From positions 372,001 to 436,000 of the forward strand of contig JAHBXC010000002.1 of assembly GCA_019636675.1 (NCBI GenBank): DNA of 64,000 nt, given 5' to 3'. Every line of letters starts with the position of its first letter. Position 1 is the stretch's first letter. The stretch is from Phycisphaeraceae bacterium (lineage in GTDB: Bacteria > Planctomycetota > Phycisphaerae > Phycisphaerales > UBA1924). The translations under genes were made by a program, and so were the position numbers. The notes under the pieces are model-generated. The model had not been told where the DNA came from. It ran no database searches and was given only the letters and a program-made list of their open reading frames with translations. Positions 52,317 through 63,703 of this stretch are shown here, piece after piece.

Positions 52317-55300
52317 CTATCGCTCAACTCGTCCAAGTTCGTCGGATAACCCGTAGAAGTTGGCATGCTCCATCGTGTCGATAGTGTTCAGGCACCGGGT
52401 TTTGAGCGCATCATCATCCGATTGCGTATAAAGTCGGATCACAATCTTCGAAAGGTCGCTCGCTACCATCGCTCCGCGCGTGCGAATATCGCCGGCATTG
52501 GTCTTGAACTGCTCGACACCTGCTTCGGCCAAGCGGCAAACGAGGTCCGGAAGACGGACGGGAGAGTCTTCGAGCGCATGGATTACAGGCTCGAGAGCCG
52601 TGGCACTAGGATTGGAGTCGAGAAACGCCCCCAACAGATCTGCTTGTTTTCTGGTTGCAAGCTCGGCGATGCGACGGAACGCGGTTGCGGCCTTTGCTCG
52701 GACATTGTCTGAAGGGTCGGCAAAGAACGGCAGCAGGAGTTCGCGACACGATGCGCCTACCTCTTTATTGGCAATGTTCGTCGCGTAGATCGTTGCCGAA
52801 GCCTCGCGCATCGCCGGCGTTCCTATGCGGACTTGTGCTGCATCCTCCTTTGCCATGTCGATGTTTAAGGCGAGCAAGCAGCATAACTTCGAACCCACCT
52901 TGACCGTCTTCGCGTCATCACTCGCTATCATGTTTTGAATAATAGGTCTGAGCGCCGCGTAGTCGCGATGGCCCGCGTAATGCACGAAGTGCTCAACCAA
53001 AGGAGTCTTAAGGAGCACTGCGTCAAGGCTGATGCACTCGACAAACCACGGGATAGCGAGGTCCGGTCGTTTGCTGAGCAATGCGAGCAAAGCGCGAACG
53101 GCTTGCGCACGCACTGCAATCGATGGATCGTGGGCGAGTCGGTCAATCGCCTTGATGAGAACATCGGTGGGTGGGTGGGTGGCGAACAGCAACGCCGAAA
53201 TCGCATAGGCCGCGATACCACGCGTCGAATTCAAGCCAGCCATGTCTGGATCGCCGCCGTAGTAGACCTGGCCGCTGGGCGTGGGCTTACGCCACGCCTC
53301 TTCGCTCGGATCGGGGTCTTCTGTCGCATACCACGCGACGATGTCGACAATAGATTCGGGCCAACCGAGTTGGGTCCACTTTTCGACGAGGTGGGTGATT
53401 GAACGACCGCACGGCCGACCTGGCAGCGCGTGGATCCGAACTATAAGCGAGACGGCATCCGACAGAGTCACGCCGTTGCCGCTCGCTTCGACGGATGATT
53501 CGGTCGCGGCAAGGCCTTGGAGGATCGCGTCGAAGTAGCTCGCCGGGAGGCCCACAGACATTCGCTGTGTGAGTGCCGCGAAGCGTTTGGGTTGGGCCTT
53601 TGTCATCGACTCTAATGACTGCGCTAGTTGGCGTTCACCGCCCGAGGCTTCGATGTCTCTGTCACGGCGGTGCTCAACGCCAGCGTACTTCGCCATCGCC
53701 GAGAGCCACTGATCGTCCGTCATCTTTTCCATCGCTTCGGCGGGGACCGGCGATCCGACGCACACGAACTTGCTCGGTCTGGGACGCTCATATGTGGCAT
53801 CCGGGAACTTGGCCCGTAGCTCGGCGAGTTTCGCACGGCCGACTGCTCCCAGCCGGCTCTGGTCCATGGCTGCCAAGAGCTGCAATTGCCGCAGTCCTCG
53901 CAGCGGAGGATTGCGCGACTCCCACTCGTCCCGAAGATCTACGATGGTGCTCTCCAAGCTCGAAAATGCTTCCTGCGAGCAGGCCTGAGACGCCGCCCGA
54001 ACAGCCTCAATCGATCGGTAGTCGGAGGCCATACCCGCTCCTGCTCCCCAAGAGGCGTACCCGACTTTCAGCCGACGAGGATCCTCAACCAGATATCGCG
54101 CTAAGCGATCCGCGTATCTTGCTGACGCCGCTGACCACGCGCGGAGGACAAGGTAAGCGATAGTGTCATTGGAGCGCGTCATGTACGGACTGAACATCCG
54201 ATCCAAATCATCTGGCGCCGAAACAGCCAGTGCCTCAAGCGCACGGGCTAAACATGTCAAGAGGGAAACATGGACTTGGTGCGCGTCGTCACCGTATGAA
54301 CGGAAGCACCAGAGCGGATCAGAATCGAGATGGTCACGGCAGGGTTTCGAGTGCGTCGACACGATTTCTGCGACGCGTGGCAGGAGTTGCTCCACGAAGG
54401 CCATCGGCGACCCAGTTGCAGTCTTCACGATGACTCCGTGGTCGTCACCATCTTGGTCAAAGTGCTGCGACAGAGATGTTCTCGATTCGGATTCCCTGAT
54501 GTTGGTCCTTCTGACCTCGCTCTCGCGGCACTCCGTACCCAGGCCAGACGGAATCGGTGCCGCATGCGTCTGCTGCCACACCTGAAGCTTTCGGTCAACC
54601 CAGGCGGCGATCGCCTCGGCGGCCATCGTCGGTGCCTTATCGCACATTGAATACAGCGTGCTCCACCAGTTGTCGTTTACCGCGACCCCGGGGCGTGTGT
54701 CATCAAGTGTACCATCGCGGATGAGGGACAGGAACAGGTTGAAGATCTCGCGGCTGTGGAAAACATCGCCACCCCGGCAGATGTACCGAAGGTAGTGTGT
54801 CCATGCCTCGTCGTTACACCGGTACTGCCGCAACAGCGCTGCCACGCGAGTCGATCGATGCTTAAGCACCTCCGGCATCGCGCAGAGCCAGACGACCCGC
54901 TCTCCCCTTTGCGACCCGCGGCTGGACAGCCCCGACTCCAGGAAACCGACCTCATCGAGCCTGTCGAACCAACCAACATGGTTCGAAATGACGCGGTTCA
55001 CATGATGCAGCAAGTCTGGATTAGCGGCTTCAAGTTCACGCAGCACAGTCCATTCCGCGTGCGTCGGGTCTGGCGTGGTCGATATGAACTGCAACACGAC
55101 ACGCTTGATGTGGAATCGAACCCGAGTCTCGGTGAGGACAGACCGAAGCTCCGTCCCGTATCGCGCAGAATCAGTTGATCTCAGGAAGGAGAGCACTTGA
55201 CGAACTTGAGCGCGGCGGAACAGGTGTTGCTCGCTGCTCAGCAGCAGATTGAGAAGACTTCCGCCCTTCTGCACAAAGCGGCGAGCGAAAGCGTAATCGA

Positions 55301-56957
55301 AGAATGTCTCGTGGAAAAAGCGGTAGCGGCCATCGGCCAGCACGAGGACATTCTCGGAGGCCAATGCGTCTGCGTCCGGGCGGAACTCATCAGGGAGCAT
55401 GCTCGCTGGCGCTGAAAGCTCCTGCTGGTCGCTGAGCCATTGAGTGAGCCAATCTACGACAGCGGCAAGATTGCAACTTCGGCCCAGCCGCTGTGTGCAT
55501 TGTTGCTGTTTCTCCGTCCAAAACGCCGCGAACAGCTGGTCTCGCGTTTCGAGGCGCTCGCTCTCGCCGTGCTCGAGCGACAGGAACATGGCGAGGTGCA
55601 GCGGGACGATCAGCACGGGCCTCAACTTGGGGTGAACCTTTCGCTCATCCAAGATCTCGTCCACTGTCTCAGTCGGAAACGATTGGATAGTGACGACTTC
55701 AAAGGTCGAAGTCTCGGCCTTGAGCGAACGCATCCGGTGATCGTGTTCAAGGTCGAATGCTCGGCACGCGACAATCACCCGAAGGTTTGGATACCCGTCG
55801 GCCTCGACCAATATCCGTTCGAAGAGTGACCAAACATCTGCTCGGCGGCCGGATGCGAGGCTCACGGCGTCGAGTTGATCAATGACCAGCACGCAATGTC
55901 CGCCGTCGGCCAGGCCGGCAAGCACTGCTGCAGGCGATGCGGGGAGGGAAAGTTCCTCGCCGAGCCGTTGCGGTGTGAGGATGCTTTCGTGGATGCTATC
56001 CATTCGGACAGGCAACACCGGGACGCCAGCCGCCCGAAGACGCTCGATGACACATGCCAACTCGCTGCTCTTCCCGGCACCGGCTCCGCCTGAGATCAGT
56101 GTGCGCCAGGCTACAGGGAGGTCGTCAGGACCGAGTAGTTTGTCGGCTCCGGGCAACTTCTGCAATGTTCCACCGATCAGTTGGTCGCAAAGCGGGCGCG
56201 TGTACGCATCGCATAGTGCGTCGACCTTCTCCCGGATGGTGGGGTCGACCTTCCAATCTCTGCGGCGGAGCCCATGCGTTGCCAGGTGATCAAGAAGCAT
56301 CTTCCGATCAATCTGCTGGTGCATCTGGTCGATCAGGTACTCGGCCAGAAGTCTGCGGATGTGTCTCGCGTCAACCGAGCCGCCGATCTCCGGATAGAAC
56401 AAGAGCGCGATTCTCGATTCGATCTGCGTTCGCAGCGATGTCTCGTCTGCGGTGCGGATCTGAAGACGCGTCAAAAATTGTCGTGTACATTCGCGGTCAC
56501 CGCGGAACAGAGGGAGGAGGTACTTGTCGTGCTGGGCCTTGAGTTCCGCTGACTGGTCGAGCCGCTGTTGCAGTGAGTCTGCGGTTGCAGCGACCGATCG
56601 CATCTCTTCCAGATTCGCCGCGCCGAGTGTTGACGCAAACACGCCAACATAGCGAGCGTCACGGTCAACATGCGCTGCCAGATCGCCGAGGATTGATCTT
56701 CCGTGCTCGTCGCGGCGCGTCAGTGTCGCGAGCGTCCAGCCCGCAGCACTCGTCGTCTGGCGTTTCAACGACCAAAACTCGACTTTCCTCGTCGCAGTCT
56801 CGACCTTGAACTCGACTCCGCGGGACTGCTCTGGGGCGAGCGATTCGTAAGTTACATGCTCGGCGTAACCTTCGATCACGCGCAGCGCGGCATCGACTGT
56901 CCACAAGGCTTCGTACTGATCGCCGGCTTTGCCAGCCGCCCCACCTCTAGAAGGCAT
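52317..56957 (-). CDS. STAND-type P-loop NTPase with nuclease-like N-terminus and HEAT-like C-terminus, candidate anti-phage protein
   Basis: 1,546 residues from the ATG at 56957 (MPSRGGAAGKAGDQYEALW); an in-frame start 25 codons upstream is less likely. About 1-110 resembles the DUF4297/Cap4-type PD-(D/E)xK-like nuclease domain: GDQYEALWTVDAALRVI, VEF with Glu49, then VEFWSLKRQ with Lys65 and GWTLATL. The NTPase is about 275-560: Walker A ISGGAGAGKSSE (Lys296), Walker B CVLVIDQLDAV (Asp360), sensor VIVACRAFD. About 600-1546 is helical, with HEAT-like units (IAVRAQAVRALLALLSKRP, DNVRAKAATAFRRIAEL) that would serve as the ligand sensor. It stands alone with weaker third-codon G/C than the flanks, a sign of transfer. 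STAND NTPases of this layout (Avs, NACHT-type) detect phage proteins and then cut DNA; that role is inference here. Confidence 0.78.
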   Translation of the reverse strand: MPSRGGAAGKAGDQYEALWTVDAALRVIEGYAEHVTYESLAPEQSRGVEFKVETATRKVEFWSLKRQTTSAAGWTLATLTRRDEHGRSILGDLAAHVDRDARYVGVFASTLGAANLEEMRSVAATADSLQQRLDQSAELKAQHDKYLLPLFRGDRECTRQFLTRLQIRTADETSLRTQIESRIALLFYPEIGGSVDARHIRRLLAEYLIDQMHQQIDRKMLLDHLATHGLRRRDWKVDPTIREKVDALCDAYTRPLCDQLIGGTLQKLPGADKLLGPDDLPVAWRTLISGGAGAGKSSELACVIERLRAAGVPVLPVRMDSIHESILTPQRLGEELSLPASPAAVLAGLADGGHCVLVIDQLDAVSLASGRRADVWSLFERILVEADGYPNLRVIVACRAFDLEHDHRMRSLKAETSTFEVVTIQSFPTETVDEILDERKVHPKLRPVLIVPLHLAMFLSLEHGESERLETRDQLFAAFWTEKQQQCTQRLGRSCNLAAVVDWLTQWLSDQQELSAPASMLPDEFRPDADALASENVLVLADGRYRFFHETFFDYAFARRFVQKGGSLLNLLLSSEQHLFRRAQVRQVLSFLRSTDSARYGTELRSVLTETRVRFHIKRVVLQFISTTPDPTHAEWTVLRELEAANPDLLHHVNRVISNHVGWFDRLDEVGFLESGLSSRGSQRGERVVWLCAMPEVLKHRSTRVAALLRQYRCNDEAWTHYLRYICRGGDVFHSREIFNLFLSLIRDGTLDDTRPGVAVNDNWWSTLYSMCDKAPTMAAEAIAAWVDRKLQVWQQTHAAPIPSGLGTECRESEVRRTNIRESESRTSLSQHFDQDGDDHGVIVKTATGSPMAFVEQLLPRVAEIVSTHSKPCRDHLDSDPLWCFRSYGDDAHQVHVSLLTCLARALEALAVSAPDDLDRMFSPYMTRSNDTIAYLVLRAWSAASARYADRLARYLVEDPRRLKVGYASWGAGAGMASDYRSIEAVRAASQACSQEAFSSLESTIVDLRDEWESRNPPLRGLRQLQLLAAMDQSRLGAVGRAKLAELRAKFPDATYERPRPSKFVCVGSPVPAEAMEKMTDDQWLSAMAKYAGVEHRRDRDIEASGGERQLAQSLESMTKAQPKRFAALTQRMSVGLPASYFDAILQGLAATESSVEASGNGVTLSDAVSLIVRIHALPGRPCGRSITHLVEKWTQLGWPESIVDIVAWYATEDPDPSEEAWRKPTPSGQVYYGGDPDMAGLNSTRGIAAYAISALLFATHPPTDVLIKAIDRLAHDPSIAVRAQAVRALLALLSKRPDLAIPWFVECISLDAVLLKTPLVEHFVHYAGHRDYAALRPIIQNMIASDDAKTVKVGSKLCCLLALNIDMAKEDAAQVRIGTPAMREASATIYATNIANKEVGASCRELLLPFFADPSDNVRAKAATAFRRIAELATRKQADLLGAFLDSNPSATALEPVIHALEDSPVRLPDLVCRLAEAGVEQFKTNAGDIRTRGAMVASDLSKIVIRLYTQSDDDALKTRCLNTIDTMEHANFYGLSDELGRVER

Positions 56958-57421
56958 ATGTAATACTCTATCCTGCGGAGCAGCCTGACGCGCGTGTGCT
57001 GACTGATGGCACACTGCCGCTGAGTTCCGCATGGCCCTGAATCTGGCCAGAAGCGGCTCTGGTCGTCTTGGGCGTGTACTTGATCGAAGGCATCACGCCG
57101 AACAGAAAAGTGGAGCCGGGGGGAATCGAACGCTGGGGAAATCGCAACTGGCGATCTCTCAGGTGGTTGTGACGCACAAACCGTCACACAGAAATCGCAT
57201 CATCAACTGACAGAGATTGTCGCGGTATGGCCCGACCTGCCCCAATCGGTGCGCGATGCAGTATACACGCTGATTCGTCACTCGCAAGCAGATCGGGACA
57301 AACCGTGACATGCCGAGAGGCGTGGTGTCCGACGCTGCCATGACGGCGCGGTCCATGGACATCGAAACTCTTGCAGCAACGGTGAGGCCGGTGGTAGGAT
57401 GGCGAGACGGAGGTGCAAAGC
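56958..57421. other. Divergent intergenic region, 464 nt, with a tRNA/tmRNA 3' remnant
   Basis: Between the NTPase gene and the next plus-strand gene. Holds the remnant at 57111-57131. Otherwise no gene; short open frames have no start or Shine-Dalgarno sequence. GGAGG at about 57409 belongs to the gene at 57422. Confidence 0.6.
57111..57131 (-). repeat. Truncated 3' end of a tRNA-Ala or tmRNA gene, probable attachment-site scar
   Basis: On the minus strand 57131-57111 reads GTTCGATTCCCCCC then GGCTCCA: a T-loop TTCGATT, T-stem 3' strand CCCCC and acceptor end CGGCTCC plus discriminator A, as in tRNA-Ala or tmRNA. The sequence 5' to it cannot form the T-stem (only one base pair), so the gene is not complete here. 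Such 3' remnants are left at one end of elements that integrate into tRNA or tmRNA genes. No integrase is in the window. Confidence 0.6.
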
Positions 57422-57859
57422 ATGCATGACGAGGAATCCATCGGTCCACCCTTTCACATCGTGATCGGGGTAACTCGCTGCTACCGGTGCGGTGGCGCAT
57501 TCGAGGTCGCGGCGATCGCAGGGAGCGATCCCGAGGGCCACGCCTGCTTCTCGACCCACATCGAATCGATGCCAGAGGCGCTTCTCGACGCCGTCCGTGC
57601 GCAGATCGCTGTCTACCGCAAGGTGTTCTCGAGGTCGGTCGGGCATCAGTACTATGCCAACATCTGCCCGCACTGCGATGCCCTCTCGGGCGACTTCTTC
57701 CTGCACCAGCCCGGCGAGCTCTTCGGGGTGATGGAGCCCGAAGACGCGCACGGGCTGCGAGTCATCTCTGTCGGACCCAATGTCAACGGATCGATCGTCG
57801 GCAGCGCTCTCTTCGGCTCGTCCCTCGATCTAATCTTCGAGGCTGCCACCAAGGCTTGA
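57422..57859 (+). CDS. Hypothetical protein with two zinc-binding CxxC motifs
   Basis: 145 residues. ATG at 57422 with GGAGG 8 nt upstream. Two CxxC pairs, CYRCGG (about residue 20) and CPHCDA (about 82), are 60 residues apart and could form one zinc site. Between them is FSTHIESMPEALLDAVRAQIAVYRKVFSR, a helix. No family recognised. First gene right of the tRNA remnant; the next gene is 37 nt downstream on the same strand. Confidence 0.55.
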   Translation: MHDEESIGPPFHIVIGVTRCYRCGGAFEVAAIAGSDPEGHACFSTHIESMPEALLDAVRAQIAVYRKVFSRSVGHQYYANICPHCDALSGDFFLHQPGELFGVMEPEDAHGLRVISVGPNVNGSIVGSALFGSSLDLIFEAATKA

Positions 57860-57896
57860 CAAGCGTTGGAGCACGCGAGGCGGCGCGGAGACGAGC

Positions 57897-58628
57897 ATGT
57901 TCACGGTCGAGATCGATCTGCATCTGACATTCTCACCGCCGATGCGCGACAACGACCGTGGCATCACCCTGACGAGGAGCGTCTCCCTGCCCTTTCCACC
58001 GTACGACGGGCTTCGGGTTTTCAGCGCCGAGATTGACACCTGCCCCGAGCCCGAGGGCCTGGCGCTCCGCGGCATCGTTTGGGACATCGACCGCGGCGTC
58101 TTCTACGCGTCGACCTACGCCAACAGCATGCTCGTACCGTTTGATGTGATACCCGCCGAGATCGCGGAGTGGCTCGATAGAGGATGGCGTTTCGGCAGCC
58201 ATCGGGATCGCTACCGGCAGGAAAAGCCCGCAGAAGATGAGGCCGGCGACGAAGTCGAGCTCCCGGGCGATGAGTTCGCCGCGCTCGATGAAGCCACGAA
58301 CGAAGAGCTGGAATACGAGAAACCGAAGCGGAAGCGATCAGCCGAGTTCAATCGCGTCTTCAAGGCGATGGCGAGGCAACTCGCGGAAGGGTTCAGCGAC
58401 TTGCCTTCGGCGTACGCGATGCACAAGACGGGCGTCTATTTCGATGAGCGAGAGGGAGCACGCTGCAGCCGCCACGAAATGGGAGCCGCCGAAGCCAGGT
58501 TCTTCGCGGCGAAAGACGAGTTCGCCAAGTGGCCCTATGGGGAGCAGCACGCGTTTCGGGAGAAGATGCTGCGCACTCGACCGAGCTTGGAGCGGCTGGC
58601 AATCGATCGAGCGACAACCGCGGCGTGA
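57897..58628 (+). CDS. Hypothetical protein, cytoplasmic
   Basis: 243 residues, ATG at 57897. The N-terminal 100 residues are beta-rich (TVEIDLHLTFSPPM, RGVFYASTYANSMLVPFDVIP). An acidic linker (about 105-135) leads to a helical C-terminal half with Lys/Arg (EYEKPKRKRSAEFNRVFKAMARQL). No membrane span, signal peptide or catalytic motif. Probably co-transcribed with the zinc-motif gene upstream. Not recognised. Confidence 0.5.
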   Translation: MFTVEIDLHLTFSPPMRDNDRGITLTRSVSLPFPPYDGLRVFSAEIDTCPEPEGLALRGIVWDIDRGVFYASTYANSMLVPFDVIPAEIAEWLDRGWRFGSHRDRYRQEKPAEDEAGDEVELPGDEFAALDEATNEELEYEKPKRKRSAEFNRVFKAMARQLAEGFSDLPSAYAMHKTGVYFDEREGARCSRHEMGAAEARFFAAKDEFAKWPYGEQHAFREKMLRTRPSLERLAIDRATTAA

Positions 58629-58953
58629 CTCCCCCAATTCATGTGGGTATCGCCCGACGCAGTTCTGGCAACCACCGGATCGACAGTCGAAAGGATACCG
58701 AACAAAACCGGCCGTCAGATGCTCAGAAACCGCCTTCAGAGGGTCGGGAAGGCGGGTCGCCCGGGTGAGTGGGGGGCCAGTCCACTGCGTCTCGGGCCCT
58801 CGTCAGGACGCAATGGAGGACGCAAGAGAGCGACCACCGGACTCGGGATCACGGAATCCGGTGGTGAGTGCACGGAACATCTCAACCGTGATATCGGACG
58901 CTCACGGAACACAATCGCGCTATCGTGCGTTGATCCGACATCGGACCGTCTTC
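58629..58953. other. Intergenic region of 325 nt
   Basis: Contains an inverted repeat CCACCGGA/TCCGGTGG (58834-58841 and 58857-58864, 15-nt loop). The open frames crossing it have no start site or signal and look non-coding. Possibly the promoter region of the exported protein at 58954. Confidence 0.45.
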
Positions 58954-59391
58954 ATGATCCTCAGACTGATCGTGATCTTGACCCTGCTCTCGCCCGCCCT
59001 GGCGGGATTGGGTCGCACATGGACGCCGGGGCGTTCGTGCTGCGAGTCGGCTGTTGTCGTCGCGACTGCATCGGACCACTGCGCAACGCTTCAGCCTGCC
59101 GCGCCATGCGACAGCCCGCGCGATCGTCAGCACGAATGCTGCACAGGTGCAGCGGAGTGTGTTTGCGGCATCGGACAGGCTCCAGAACGCCAGCGGGCTC
59201 CGATGGCCCCGCTCCCCAGCCGCGGTGAGCACAAGGCGCCCGCGACACTTCCACGAGATTCCAACGAGAATTTCGGTGAGTTCGATCTGCGGGCGGGTCT
59301 GGCGGCCGTGCGCCCCGCGGTGCTCGTGATCTTCACGGCGTTACGGACCAAGAACGATGCCTTGGCGTTCCTGAGCGTCTGGCGAACCTAG
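58954..59391 (+). CDS. Small exported Cys-rich protein near the metal-resistance genes
   Basis: 145 residues from the ATG at 58954 (MILRLIVILTLLSPALAGLG), a short signal peptide. The mature part has Cys pairs and spaced Cys (RSCCES, DHCATL, APCDSP, HECCTGAAECVCGIG), suited to metal binding or disulfides. About 115-130 is a second hydrophobic segment (LAAVRPAVLVIFTAL). Its place before the TRASH-domain gene suggests a role in metal handling, but that is by context only. Confidence 0.55.
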   Translation: MILRLIVILTLLSPALAGLGRTWTPGRSCCESAVVVATASDHCATLQPAAPCDSPRDRQHECCTGAAECVCGIGQAPERQRAPMAPLPSRGEHKAPATLPRDSNENFGEFDLRAGLAAVRPAVLVIFTALRTKNDALAFLSVWRT

Positions 59392-59591
59392 AGCGCCCGA
59401 TACGCAGGGACACTCTGCGCGGAGGGTCACGGTTCACTTGGCCCACGCGCGCCCCGTCGCGTATTCCGCGTTCGCCGCCGACGATCCCCACTCACATTCC
59501 CAGTGCATTGACATCACCGCGGTCGTTCGCGCTTGCTGCTCGGCGCGCGCAGACCCGTTGACGCACCCCCGTACTTGATAAGGACATGTTC

Positions 59592-60473
59592 ATGCCCAGG
59601 TTTATGTCGCGTCGTTTCCCGCTCGCCCTTCTTGGTCTCGTTTCGTCGGCCGCATTCGCAGGTGACCCCGTCAACGCCATGTGCCCGATCGGCAAAGAGA
59701 CGATCGTCGCTTCGGCGGGAACCGTCGAGTACAAGGGCAGGACCATCGGCCTCTGTTGCCCAGGATGCGGCAAGGAGTTCCTCGCGTGGGACGGCCCACG
59801 GAAGGATGAGTTCGTGGCCCTGGCGCTCGCCAAGCGTGAGCCCGGTCGCGAGCACGCGGTCGCTCCGGCCGCCGTCGGATGGAGCGACCCCTACCCGCTC
59901 GACACATGCCCCGTCTCAGGCGGCAAACTCGGCTCGATGGGGGATCCGGTCGTGAAGACCTACGACGGGCGCGAGGTCCGCTTCTGCTGCGACGGATGCG
60001 TCGGCAAGTTCGACGCCGACAAGGCCGGATACTTCGCGAAGATCGACCCGCGGATCGTGCGCGACCAAGCGCCCTTCTACCCTCTTGCCGAATGCGTTGT
60101 CTCGGGCGAGCCCCTCGCCGCAGGCGCCGTCAACCTCGTCTACGGAAACCGCCTTGTGCGACTCTGCTGCGAGATGTGCGCCGGCGAGTTCAAGGCGGAT
60201 CCCGCTGCCCACATCGCCAAGATCGACAAGGCCGCCTCTGACGCGCAGCGCCCGAACTACCCGCTCGACACCTGCATCGTCGCCAACAGCAAGCTCGGTT
60301 CGATGGGCGAGCCGGCCGAGATTATTGTCGCCGGACGCCTCTTCCGGTTCTGCTGCGCCGGGTGCAAGGACGAAGTCCGCGCGCATCCTGCCAAGCACAT
60401 CGCGACCCTCGACGCGGCCTGGCGCGGATCGGGCAAGGCAATCCCGGGCGCGTCCCCGGCGCCTCGCCGGTGA
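59592..60473 (+). CDS. Exported protein with four TRASH/YHS-like metal-binding domains
   Basis: 293 residues. The ATG at 59592 has AAGGA 7 nt upstream and is preferred over 59586. Signal peptide ends near SAAFAG. Four modules of ~60 residues each contain a CPxx start and a CCxxC: CPIGKETI ... LCCPGCGKEF, CPVSGGKL ... FCCDGCVGKF, CVVSGEPL ... LCCEMCAGEF and CIVANSKL ... FCCAGCKDEV. TRASH domains bind copper or other soft metals. Probably a periplasmic metal sponge or sensor. Four in a row is unusual; most known proteins carry one or two. Confidence 0.82.
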   Translation: MPRFMSRRFPLALLGLVSSAAFAGDPVNAMCPIGKETIVASAGTVEYKGRTIGLCCPGCGKEFLAWDGPRKDEFVALALAKREPGREHAVAPAAVGWSDPYPLDTCPVSGGKLGSMGDPVVKTYDGREVRFCCDGCVGKFDADKAGYFAKIDPRIVRDQAPFYPLAECVVSGEPLAAGAVNLVYGNRLVRLCCEMCAGEFKADPAAHIAKIDKAASDAQRPNYPLDTCIVANSKLGSMGEPAEIIVAGRLFRFCCAGCKDEVRAHPAKHIATLDAAWRGSGKAIPGASPAPRR

Positions 60474-60525
60474 GCACGGGCTGTGGACAACCTGTTCGGA
60501 TGGTTGGAGAGTACAGAACGGCATG

Positions 60526-60555
60526 TTGACACACGACTCGCGAGGATGCGACAAT
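60526..60555 (+). promoter_or_regulatory. Promoter for the HMBD-TolC-oxidase operon
   Basis: A consensus -35 TTGACA (60526-60531) and a -10-like GACAAT (60550-60555) are separated by 18 nt, about 72 nt before the ATG at 60628. This is the best sigma-70-type match in the accessory part. Confidence 0.5.
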
Positions 60556-60627
60556 GCCTCAAACACACAATCGGCGATCTCGTATGAAATCAGTTCGATC
60601 CCTCGCAGGGCCCTCGGAGGGAACGTC

Positions 60628-61005
60628 ATGAGTCGCGGCGCCTTTGTGGTGTTGCTCTCGCTCGCTTCTCTCGCGGGTTGCGTGCACACCCGCGATGTGC
60701 CCGGACCTGCACCGGGCCACCCGGCGTCCGCGGAGAGCGCCGCTGCGCCGTACACACCGCCCCCCAATCCGTTCGCGCGAGGCGCCGTTGGATCGAACGG
60801 GCCCGACGGCGCACACGGCAAGCACGCGGACCCTGGGCGGGATTCCGACGGTCCGATGACGCTGTATGTCTGCCCCATGCATCCGGAGGTGCGCGCCGAC
60901 CGGCCCGGCGCGTGCCCAAAGTGCGGGATGCGTCTCGTCCCGCAGCGCGGCGTGGATGACCCCAATGCCCATCATGCACACCCGGACGAGGAGGCGCGCC
61001 CGTGA
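60628..61005 (+). CDS. Lipoprotein with heavy-metal-binding domain (HMBD)
   Basis: 125 residues. ATG at 60628 with GGAGG 7 nt upstream. Lipobox LAGC at residue 18. A Pro/Ala/Gly-rich spacer (about 25-70) precedes LYVCPMHPEVRADRPGACPKCGMRLVPQ, the YHxCPMHPxV...PGxCPxCGM HMBD signature found beside CopA ATPases and CusB adaptors. His-rich end (NAHHAHPDEE). Probably binds copper or silver at the membrane. GTGA overlap with the TolC-like gene. Confidence 0.85.
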   Translation: MSRGAFVVLLSLASLAGCVHTRDVPGPAPGHPASAESAAAPYTPPPNPFARGAVGSNGPDGAHGKHADPGRDSDGPMTLYVCPMHPEVRADRPGACPKCGMRLVPQRGVDDPNAHHAHPDEEARP

Positions 61006-62432
61006 CGCCGCGATTTTCCGTTATCGCTTTCCTCGTCGGGGCTCTGACGCTCGTCGGCTGCGCCGTTCCGGACATCGACGGATCGTTCGGGAGCGTGGGC
61101 GACCTCACTCGCGAGCGCATCGGGGCGGAGGTCGCGTGGCCCGTCACCCCCGAAGCGGCCACCGCCATCGACGAGCGGGTCGCAGTTCTGCTCGCGGAGC
61201 CGCTCGACGCGGAACGAGTCGTGGCGATCGCGCTGCTCAATAACCGACGACTCCGAGCCCGCTACGCCACACTCGGAATGGCTCAGGCCGATTTCATCGA
61301 GTCCGGCCTCCTCGACAATCCCATGCTGAGCGCTGGTGTCGCGTTCCCCGATCGGCCACCCAGCAAGACGGAACTCGACTTCGGCCTCACCCTGAACCTC
61401 CTGCGTGTGCTCGTGACGCCCGCGCGGCGAGAGATCGCCTCGCTGGGTGTGACCGCGACAACGCTCTTAGTCGCGTCAGATGTGCTCGATACCGCGACCG
61501 AGGCTCGCAGGGCATTTCTGGATCTCCAGGCGGCGACCCACACCAGCGAGATGTTGGGTGAGATCGCGCGCGCCGCCGAGGCGTCTGCGGAGTTCGCCCG
61601 TCGTGTCCACGCGGCGGGCAATCTCAGCGACCTTGCGCTGGCAAACCAGGAAGCGCTCTGGGAGCAGACGCGCGTGACCCACGCTCGGAGCCTCGCCGAG
61701 GTTCTTGACCGTCGCGAGCGCCTGAATGTTCACCTCGGTCTGTGGGGCGAGCGGACCGGCTGGACCATCGTTGGACGCTTGCCGGAACTTCCCCGGGCGG
61801 AACCCGACCTTGCCGATCTCGAATCGCTCGCGGTGAGACAGCGCCTCGATCTCGCGGCGGCCGCCGCAGAGGTTCAGGCCATCGCGAAAGCAGCAGGCCT
61901 CCAGCGCGACTGGCGCTACCTGCTCACCACGGAGGTCGGCGCGATAGCGTCACGCGGCTCGGACGGTCAATGGGTGTACGGGCCGGAGATCGCGCTCGAA
62001 CTCCCCGTCTTCGACCAGCGACAAGGCCAGATCGTGCGGCTAGATGCGGAGCTGCTCGCGTCCGAGAGCCGGCTCGAAGCCCTCGCGATCGAAGTTCGAT
62101 CAGAGGTGCGTCGCCTGCGTGACCGGCTCTACGCGATCCGGCACGAAGTGCAGCACTACCGGGATGTCCTGATCCCCCAGCGTGAGCGGATCACCCGTCT
62201 CACGCAGGAGCAATACAACTTCATGCTGGCGGACACCTTCGACCTCCTTGCCGCCAAGCGGGAGGAGTTCGCGTCGTACCGCGAGTACCTCGAACGAATC
62301 CACGAGTACTGGTCGACGCGCGCCGAACTGGAACGCGCTGTTGGTGGACGCCTGCCCATGCCCGAGCCCTCACCGCGCGAGTCGCCGCCCGCCGAAATTC
62401 CCGTCAACCATCACGATCACGGAGACCACTGA
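61002..62432 (+). CDS. TolC-family outer-membrane efflux protein
   Basis: 476 residues. GTG at 61002. A signal peptide with a lipobox-like LVGC precedes the channel. Two repeats of helical hairpin and strands: ALLNNRRLRARYATLGMAQADF and AQADFIESGLLDNPML, then VRQRLDLAAAAAEVQAIAKAAGL, as in CusC/TolC-type proteins. Ends with His-rich HHDHGDH. Probably exports metal with an RND partner that is not in the window, or acts with the periplasmic proteins here. Starts in the GTGA overlap, ends 1 nt into the next ATG. Confidence 0.85.
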   Translation: MTPRFSVIAFLVGALTLVGCAVPDIDGSFGSVGDLTRERIGAEVAWPVTPEAATAIDERVAVLLAEPLDAERVVAIALLNNRRLRARYATLGMAQADFIESGLLDNPMLSAGVAFPDRPPSKTELDFGLTLNLLRVLVTPARREIASLGVTATTLLVASDVLDTATEARRAFLDLQAATHTSEMLGEIARAAEASAEFARRVHAAGNLSDLALANQEALWEQTRVTHARSLAEVLDRRERLNVHLGLWGERTGWTIVGRLPELPRAEPDLADLESLAVRQRLDLAAAAAEVQAIAKAAGLQRDWRYLLTTEVGAIASRGSDGQWVYGPEIALELPVFDQRQGQIVRLDAELLASESRLEALAIEVRSEVRRLRDRLYAIRHEVQHYRDVLIPQRERITRLTQEQYNFMLADTFDLLAAKREEFASYREYLERIHEYWSTRAELERAVGGRLPMPEPSPRESPPAEIPVNHHDHGDH

Positions 62433-63703
62433 TGCTCGACCGACGCTCATTTCTCGCGGGCAGTCTCGCCGCCGGGGCGGGTGTGATGCTCGTACGGCGC
62501 GCCAGCGCCGATGAAACCCCGCCGATCGCGCGGCCCAAGCCTGGCGCCGCGCCGCTGTCGAACCCGGACTACACCCCGGTGGTTACGCCCAACGGCACGA
62601 CGATGCCCTATCGACTGCGCGAGGGGGCGAAGGAGTTTCACATCGTTGCGGAGCCGGTCGAGCGCGAGTTCGCCGACGGCATGACGGTGAAGTGCTGGGG
62701 ATACAACGGGCAGACGCCTGGCCCGACGATCGAGGTGGTGCAGGGCGATCGCGTGCGCCTCTTTGTGACCAACCGGCTCAGGGAGCACACCAGCATCCAC
62801 TGGCACGGGCTGTTCATCCCCTGCGGGATGGACGGCGTGACCGGGCTCACCCAGCCGGGCATCCAGCCCGGCGAGACCTGGGTGTACGAGTTCACCATCC
62901 CCGAGCAGCACGGGACATTCATGTATCACCCCCACGCCGACGAGATGACCCAGATGGCGTTCGGCATGATGGGCTTCTTCATCGTCCACCCGCGCGAGCC
63001 CCGGCGCGACCCCATCGACCGCGACTTCGCGATCATGCTCCACAACTGGGCCGTCCATCCGGGGACATACCGGCCCGATCCGGCGGTGATGGTCGACTTC
63101 AACATGTGGACCTTCAACAGCAGGGTGTTCCCGGGCACGGAGCACCTCGTCGCACGGTTAGGTGACCGCGTGCGCGTCCGGCTGGGCAACCTCAGTATGT
63201 GGAACCACCCGATCCATGTCCATGGGCACGCGTGGAAGGTCGTTGCCACCGACGGCGGACAGATTCCTGAGGCCGGGCAATGGCCCGAGACGACCGTGCT
63301 CGTGCCCGTCGGGACCACGCGCGATGTGGAGTTCATCGCCGACAACCCGGGCGACTGGGCGCTCCATTGTCATATGGCTCATCACACCATGAACGCGATG
63401 GCCCACGACATCGCCAACACCGCCGGCGTCGATCAATCGGGTCTCGAAGCGAAGATCCGCTCGATGCTCCCGGGCTACATGGCGATGGGCGAGCACGGCA
63501 TGGCGGAGATGCAAGACATGGCCGAGCACATGCCCGGCCCGCGCAACACGCTCCCGATGATGTCGGGCAAGGGACAGTTCGGGAATATCGAGATGGGGGG
63601 GATGTTTACGGTGCTCAAGGTCCGGGAGGCCCTGTCGTCGTACGAAGATCCCGGCTGGTACCGGTTCCCGGAGGGATCGGTCGCGCGAAAGACTGAACCG
63701 TGA
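62432..63703 (+). CDS. Tat-exported multicopper oxidase
   Basis: 423 residues. The Tat signal is DRRSFLAGS with a hydrophobic core. Copper sites: HWHG (123-126), HPH (166-168), HPIHVHG (259-265) and HCHMAHH (312-318), giving the type 1, 2 and 3 centres of a two- or three-domain oxidase. The Met-rich segment after about 345 (YMAMGEHGMAEMQDMAEHM) resembles the Cu(I)-binding methionine loops of CueO and CopA. Likely oxidises Cu(I) in the periplasm and protects the cell. TGATG overlap with the TolC-like gene. Confidence 0.92.
   Translation: MLDRRSFLAGSLAAGAGVMLVRRASADETPPIARPKPGAAPLSNPDYTPVVTPNGTTMPYRLREGAKEFHIVAEPVEREFADGMTVKCWGYNGQTPGPTIEVVQGDRVRLFVTNRLREHTSIHWHGLFIPCGMDGVTGLTQPGIQPGETWVYEFTIPEQHGTFMYHPHADEMTQMAFGMMGFFIVHPREPRRDPIDRDFAIMLHNWAVHPGTYRPDPAVMVDFNMWTFNSRVFPGTEHLVARLGDRVRVRLGNLSMWNHPIHVHGHAWKVVATDGGQIPEAGQWPETTVLVPVGTTRDVEFIADNPGDWALHCHMAHHTMNAMAHDIANTAGVDQSGLEAKIRSMLPGYMAMGEHGMAEMQDMAEHMPGPRNTLPMMSGKGQFGNIEMGGMFTVLKVREALSSYEDPGWYRFPEGSVARKTEP

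Follow-up and report, generated by a model that had tools for sequence, protein, structure and literature searches.

A predicted nuclease-NACHT-HEAT protein of a Phycisphaeraceae bacterium as a candidate self-contained, Avs-like receptor

A solitary gene on a contig of a Phycisphaeraceae bacterium probably encodes a self-contained bacterial NLR of the STAND/NACHT type, an Avs-like nuclease receptor that would be triggered by phage and cut DNA; on sequence, structural models and analogy to characterized systems, we assign this reading a probability of about 0.7. The gene lies in a stretch of 64,000 nucleotides that was analysed as a whole (the window). A three-part fold is predicted for the product, with a Cap4-type nuclease head, a NACHT switch and a long HEAT tail, and from this architecture we infer an anti-phage activity.

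The preliminary description had reported a gene of 1,546 residues and given no strand. A single open frame for a nuclease-NACHT-HEAT protein of 1,546 aa was found on the minus strand (52317..56957, stop codon included) and agreed with the alignment of homologues; all features below are on this strand. The plus strand has many stops and no open frame at 52317-56957, and a plus-strand reading was rejected for these stops throughout the interval. An in-frame ATG further upstream at 57032 would yield an alternative product of 1,571 aa, 25 residues longer; the ATG at 56957 was taken as start because the homologues align from there. The genome carries one copy of the gene. A GC content weaker than that of the neighbours had been noted before and was confirmed: the gene has a GC of 0.594 and a GC3 of 0.669, compared with 0.893 +/- 0.028 in 29 likely genes that we picked as reference from window positions 290-52000 (z -8.0). 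Base composition and codon use of the gene are foreign. A GC3 shift is likewise seen in the four genes at 57413-62429 (z -2.3 to -4.3), thus the foreign stretch may reach past the STAND gene; the next gene after this block, for a multicopper oxidase, is hardly shifted (z -0.7). ARAGORN detected no tRNA in the 64-kb window.

On the 3' side, the STAND gene is followed by one gene each of the glyoxalase and esterase families, and this pair occurs without the STAND gene in two relatives of the window's genome (G023 and G025). Two genes lacking a Pfam match come first on the opposite flank, and beyond them a YHS-domain protein, an efflux protein of the outer membrane and a multicopper oxidase are encoded. 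The block at 57413-63703 resembles metal (copper) handling. Relatives of the gene at 57897 occur in three of the 60 related genomes. In a search for empty sites, four stretches (L138-L141) were inspected, and the genes of this opposite flank were retained in none of them.

The central part of the chain is assigned to the STAND/NACHT NTPases on Walker A and B motifs, a winged helix and a predicted NACHT fold, all of them present. The predicted structure of residues 236-670 matched the NACHT switches of NLRP9, NLRP3 and NLRC4, and the top match in Foldseek was Avs4. The putative NTPase (residues 236-470, 55548..56252) contains Walker A as GGAGAGKS (residues 290-297, 56067..56090), with Lys296 in all 69 rows of an alignment drawn from many phyla, and Walker B as CVLVIDQLD (residues 355-363, 55869..55895), with Asp360 in 68 of the 69 rows (Glu in one) and Asp363 in 69. 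A lid and winged-helix part with the motif FFHE..FD follows (residues 471-565, 55263..55547; approximate boundary), lying within the NACHT structural match, and His549 and Asp554 of this part occur in every one of the 69 rows. Each feature singled out in the preliminary description, namely Glu49, WSLKRQ (Lys65), Walker A (Lys296) and Walker B, here VLVIDQLD (Asp360), was located in the protein and is conserved in the alignment.

Residues 566-1546 (52320..55262) are modelled as a HEAT-type solenoid, the presumed sensor, and have structural matches to CAND1, importin-beta and the PP2A A-subunit. The model of residues 545-1546 reached a pLDDT of 91.3 and consists of helix nearly throughout, which bears out the helical C-terminal region proposed earlier. 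A Pfam HEAT match lies just above its cut-off, and NCBIfam gave nothing above its cut-offs in the protein. Among close relatives the tail has 60-66 % identity, the NTPase 74 %. A fast-evolving sensor had been expected, and the conservation of the tail counts against a sensor role; the C-terminal region of PaAvs5 is called poorly conserved in a passage of PMC12931631. Conservation of this unusual degree would point to a trigger that is hard for phages to alter. One tail loop is variable (residues 796-850, 54408..54572), with low model confidence and an identity of 29 % in nine close relatives versus 60-66 % in the other tail segments. Length and sequence of this loop vary even among close relatives, and it is an obvious candidate region for trigger specificity.

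The family has a patchy distribution. A protein search yielded 278 relatives, and the best 120 of these 278 include a partial relative at 70 % identity from a gammaproteobacterial MAG. Genome contigs provided 79 loci in cyanobacteria, planctomycetes, actinobacteria, proteobacteria and others. Only one of 60 relatives of the window's genome, G014, has a near full-length homologue, a single frame matched in two segments (28 % and 26 %). The family profile matched 22 of 392 genomes of the phylum, and a full-length protein with head was present in four of the 392: the window's own genome, G435, G455 and G385, the last again with two matched segments in a single frame. Seven loci (L024, L033, L037, L056, L060, L063 and L069) have the homologue broken into two separate frames, thus some copies may be decaying or mis-sequenced. 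Phage records and viral contigs contained no homologue: 72 stretches matched a pattern, and none of the 72 encoded a relative; presence in phages was rejected on these searches.

Among 72,556 plasmid records 12 matched, three of them over 80 % of the length. A homologue on a conjugative plasmid of Sinorhizobium numidicum (L136, 6857-9712) adjoins an integrase of the tyrosine recombinase type and lies near a cluster of multiubiquitin, ThiF and DUF6527 genes that resembles a bacterial ubiquitin-like system. Another plasmid homologue is located among transport and metabolic genes. On plasmid pHAU01 of Herpetosiphon aurantiacus (L134, 5140-9717), a giant relative is encoded between integrase and helicase genes, with a DUF262 gene beyond. 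It matches the profile from position 114 on, has neither a match to the nuclease core nor a Pfam head, and possibly carries an unnamed effector type.

Homologues on plasmids and beside integrases look like genes of mobile-element conflict, and a conserved tail would fit a constant, perhaps cellular, ligand. A STAND receptor with the same nuclease head could accordingly answer plasmids, other incoming DNA or DNA damage instead of phage proteins; we consider this unlikely, as the triggers of Avs1-4 are phage terminase, portal or another phage protein in the sections of PMC12931631 on these systems.

The claim of the preliminary description that the gene has no cassette partner held, as no neighbour gene recurs. 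No recurrent neighbour family was found in the 47 of 79 loci with at least three called genes on both sides, and over all flanks the most widespread family occurred in four loci, directly adjacent in one; a two-gene cassette was rejected on these numbers. Homologues confined to housekeeping neighbourhoods would have spoken against defence, but the neighbourhoods are mixed, some with integrases or defence-type genes. The neighbour scan with PADLOC and Pfam covered 139 of 154 chosen neighbour genes; of the remaining 15, ten were scanned with PADLOC, two of them with matches. Among the 25 commonest families listed for the 139 genes were three phage integrases and two resolvases. Models for methylase, cyclase, type IV restriction and Druantia were matched by single neighbour genes, and those for MADS by up to three; the neighbours also comprised ordinary genes such as transporters and multicopper oxidases. 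Little weight is placed on the PADLOC counts, since in a rough control the 40 genes of the window matched PADLOC models at 1e-10 too, mostly those of PD-T4-6, which we take to be kinases.

For the protein itself, a PADLOC run as proposed in the preliminary description returned no Avs model and, at E <= 1, only two PDC-M54A models, the better one at 2.5e-12; each of the two also matched 27 of 32 relatives. These matches would suit a distant PDC-M54 member, one component of that PADLOC candidate system; the letter M presumably stands for multi-gene, and a search of the open-licence PMC literature found no paper naming PDC-M54. The best match is limited to residues 287-563 (277 of 1,546), the NTPase and winged-helix part, and to positions 321-611 of a model with 1,621 positions. 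Together with the lack of a recurrent partner in the 47 loci, this makes membership quite improbable.

The third part of the proposed receptor is the head. A nuclease-like head at residues 1-110 had been proposed earlier; the structure search placed it inside nuclease folds, whereas its extent had to be revised, as the matches run to about residue 230. The predicted structure of residues 1-232 matched Cap4/DUF4297 PD-(D/E)xK nucleases, with 9c1m, 9hr5, 8zue, 7yib and Avs3 8dgc as fold matches in VIA-align. The predicted nuclease core of the Cap4/DUF4297 type (residues 6-121, 56595..56942) is followed by a helical part (residues 122-235, 56253..56594), which the structure search still covers, since its matches to the head extend as far as residues 229-232. 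The alignment revealed a predicted active-site signature Glu49 ... Ser63-x-Lys65 (residues 49-65, 56763..56813). All 69 aligned members have an acidic residue 49 and Lys65, position 63 is Gln in 60 and Ser in nine, and the spacing acid-x13-[Q/S]-x-K is the same in Cap4 proteins. A profile of the head aligned to six Cap4 proteins with a probability of 92.9 and an E-value of 3.6e-7, placing Glu49 on Asp and WSLKRQ on HQVKTR. These six loci were five of ten candidates from one search and one from another; among the ten, L104 and L105 were family members, and L106-L108 were left out. Cap4_nuclease (PF14130) matched 18 of the 69 family heads at E <= 1, as the only Pfam family matched by more than three of them, and two homologues exceeded its curated cut-off; the head of the target itself had no Pfam recognition at E <= 1. 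With a single Cap4-family protein of a relative as query, a sequence search gave no match to a solved chain at E <= 0.01. Fold, conserved residues and profile match lead to the assignment of the head as a predicted Cap4/DUF4297-type PD-(D/E)xK domain, with DNA cutting as predicted activity. Ser63, at a position where Cap4 proteins have Gln, and the missing Pfam recognition could also reflect a nuclease fold with lost or changed activity, a regulator or binding domain in a protein that signals by another route. We regard this as highly improbable: the acidic residue and Lys65 in every row across many phyla are hard to explain without catalysis, and Ser63 is found in nine of the 69 rows, the target included.

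The same switch and tail occur behind other heads. In the profile survey, some matches in the phylum start only from about residue 260. The N-termini of such partially matching proteins are an Mrr-type nuclease in L128 and phosphorylase-superfamily domains in L129 and L130; a caspase head was found on a cyanobacterial conjugative plasmid (L135). A search with the chassis of L129 yielded 249 proteins. All of the best 120 of these 249 match the target-family profile over the STAND part and past position 900, 63 of the same 120 also beyond profile position 1400, and five in the head, hence sharing is clear for the first half of the tail and less so for its far end. Precomputed Pfam heads among the 120 include PF01048 (phosphorylase), PF04471 (Mrr), PF13676 (TIR), PF13289 (SIR2), PF13271, PF12770, PF08357 and PF12697; we take PF13271 as DUF4062, PF12770 as CHAT and PF08357 as SEFIR. 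A tree of the NACHT core was calculated by a quick method without bootstrap from 55 rows of our choice, 19 of the 32 rows of the family alignment and 36 of the 120 sister rows. The 19 Cap4-headed rows, labelled by family and not singly, form one side of a branch with an SH-aLRT of 100, and no fewer than 13 changes are required to explain the nine head labels, the minimum possible being 8. By sequence comparison, switch and tail are common to the sister clade and the heads are swapped at about residue 260, which is a new result. In two loci, a second giant gene was present a few genes from the homologue (L005, 17843-22108, 1,422 aa; L074, 20731-24513, 1,261 aa). Both products have their N-terminal part in common with P0170, a sister-clade protein with a head without Pfam name, and this part is a possible unnamed effector domain on several chassis.

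These exchanges may indicate an undescribed, widespread class of giant NLRs, in which a common NACHT-HEAT chassis (about 1,300 residues) takes plug-in effectors (Cap4, Mrr, phosphorylase, TIR, SIR2, DUF4062, CHAT, caspase) at a constant position close to residue 260, the Cap4 branch being stable, self-contained nuclease receptors that would read a conserved phage feature via the conserved HEAT tail. We see even odds for this wider reading; its probability is lowered by a solved homologue outside the clade, 9n00, with a head related to that of the target. A housekeeping ATPase with HEAT repeats is hardly tenable, although many housekeeping proteins contain HEAT solenoids, the genes next downstream have metabolic functions and one plasmid homologue lies among metabolic genes: it was rejected for the patchy distribution (near full length in one of 60 relatives, four of 392 phylum genomes including the own) and the foreign GC3 (z -8), and the heads are exchanged for other effectors in the sister clade.

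For the phage-triggered nuclease receptor, the mechanism can be sketched from Avs systems. Avs proteins follow a modular plan of N-terminal effector, central NTPase and C-terminal sensor, their triggers are conserved phage proteins, and the nucleases of Avs1-4 cut phage and host genomes, as described in the respective parts of PMC12931631. SeAvs3 tetramerises and thereby brings its nuclease heads into pairs, and DUF4297-HerA cuts dsDNA with Mg2+ (both from passages of PMC11291478). Since each Avs part is present in the one chain of the target, an Avs-like mechanism is suggested, with activation by oligomerisation and dsDNA cleavage by analogy to the Avs3 and DUF4297 precedents. The HEAT tail would keep the switch closed until it binds a phage protein as trigger, the NACHT domain would open and oligomerise with ATP, the predicted Cap4-type heads would come together in pairs to cut DNA, and stalling or death of the infected cell would follow. 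Heads swapped on one chassis fit the modular Avs plan and support the receptor reading, and the foreign GC3, the patchiness, the plasmid copies and the lack of a recurrent partner also speak for it. Against it stand the head without Pfam match, Ser63, the ordinary neighbours and the lack of a homologue in phage and viral records. Taken together, the preliminary description was partly supported: its nuclease-type head, STAND switch, solitary gene and Avs-like logic were upheld by predicted fold, profiles, conservation and phylogeny. If the receptor reading is right, a widespread single-gene nuclease receptor lineage with a HEAT-type tail, uncalled by Avs models, would be added to the bacterial NLRs, and a nuclease, NADase or protease head on the same chassis would couple the same trigger to a different output. 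The joint of head and chassis near residue 260 is clean, so that a direct test by head exchange is possible.

The description of the protein as undescribed needs qualification, given the PDC-M54A match to its NTPase part and a deposited distant relative. This one solved homologue found (PDB 9n00 / 9n01 / 9yix, 'AAA family ATPase', 1,523 aa) is a full-length relative with a profile E-value of 6.7e-51, and its head is related to the target head (E 1.7e-8). It groups with a caspase-headed protein outside the clade of the target (SH-aLRT 100), thus Cap4-type heads are not confined to this clade; the Cap4-type head is either old or was acquired more than once. 9n00 was absent among the best 50 listed matches of Foldseek and of VIA-align, with a structure library up to 2026-04-08. 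The open-licence PMC literature yielded no paper with the codes 9n00, 9n01 or 9yix, and the ATPase in the relevant passage of PMC12724215 is a different, ParA-like one. Nor was a description of the target's clade found in open-licence PMC papers; one elsewhere may exist.

Among the closest known systems is Avs (AVAST), Avs3 and Avs4 above all. The plan of Avs1-4, nuclease head, STAND and helical-repeat tail in one chain, is present in the target by structural prediction. Its tail is HEAT-type, unlike the TPR-like tails of Avs. At E <= 1 the target has no match among the PADLOC models for Avs, and membership of Avs1-4 by model was rejected on this ground; one Avs2 model matches 12 of 32 relatives weakly (best 4.5e-7). 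With the Cap4 / DUF4297 / LmuA nuclease domain (PF14130), the target has fold, signature and spacing in common, but its Cap4-type head is fused to a NACHT-HEAT chassis instead of SAVED and has no recurrent partner. SAVED had no match in the target at E <= 1, a NACHT fold being predicted at that place, and a CBASS Cap4 effector was rejected as no SAVED domain stands behind the nuclease. Animal NLRs carry leucine-rich repeats and death-fold heads; from NLRP3, NLRP9 and NLRC4, the target differs by its predicted nuclease head and HEAT tail.
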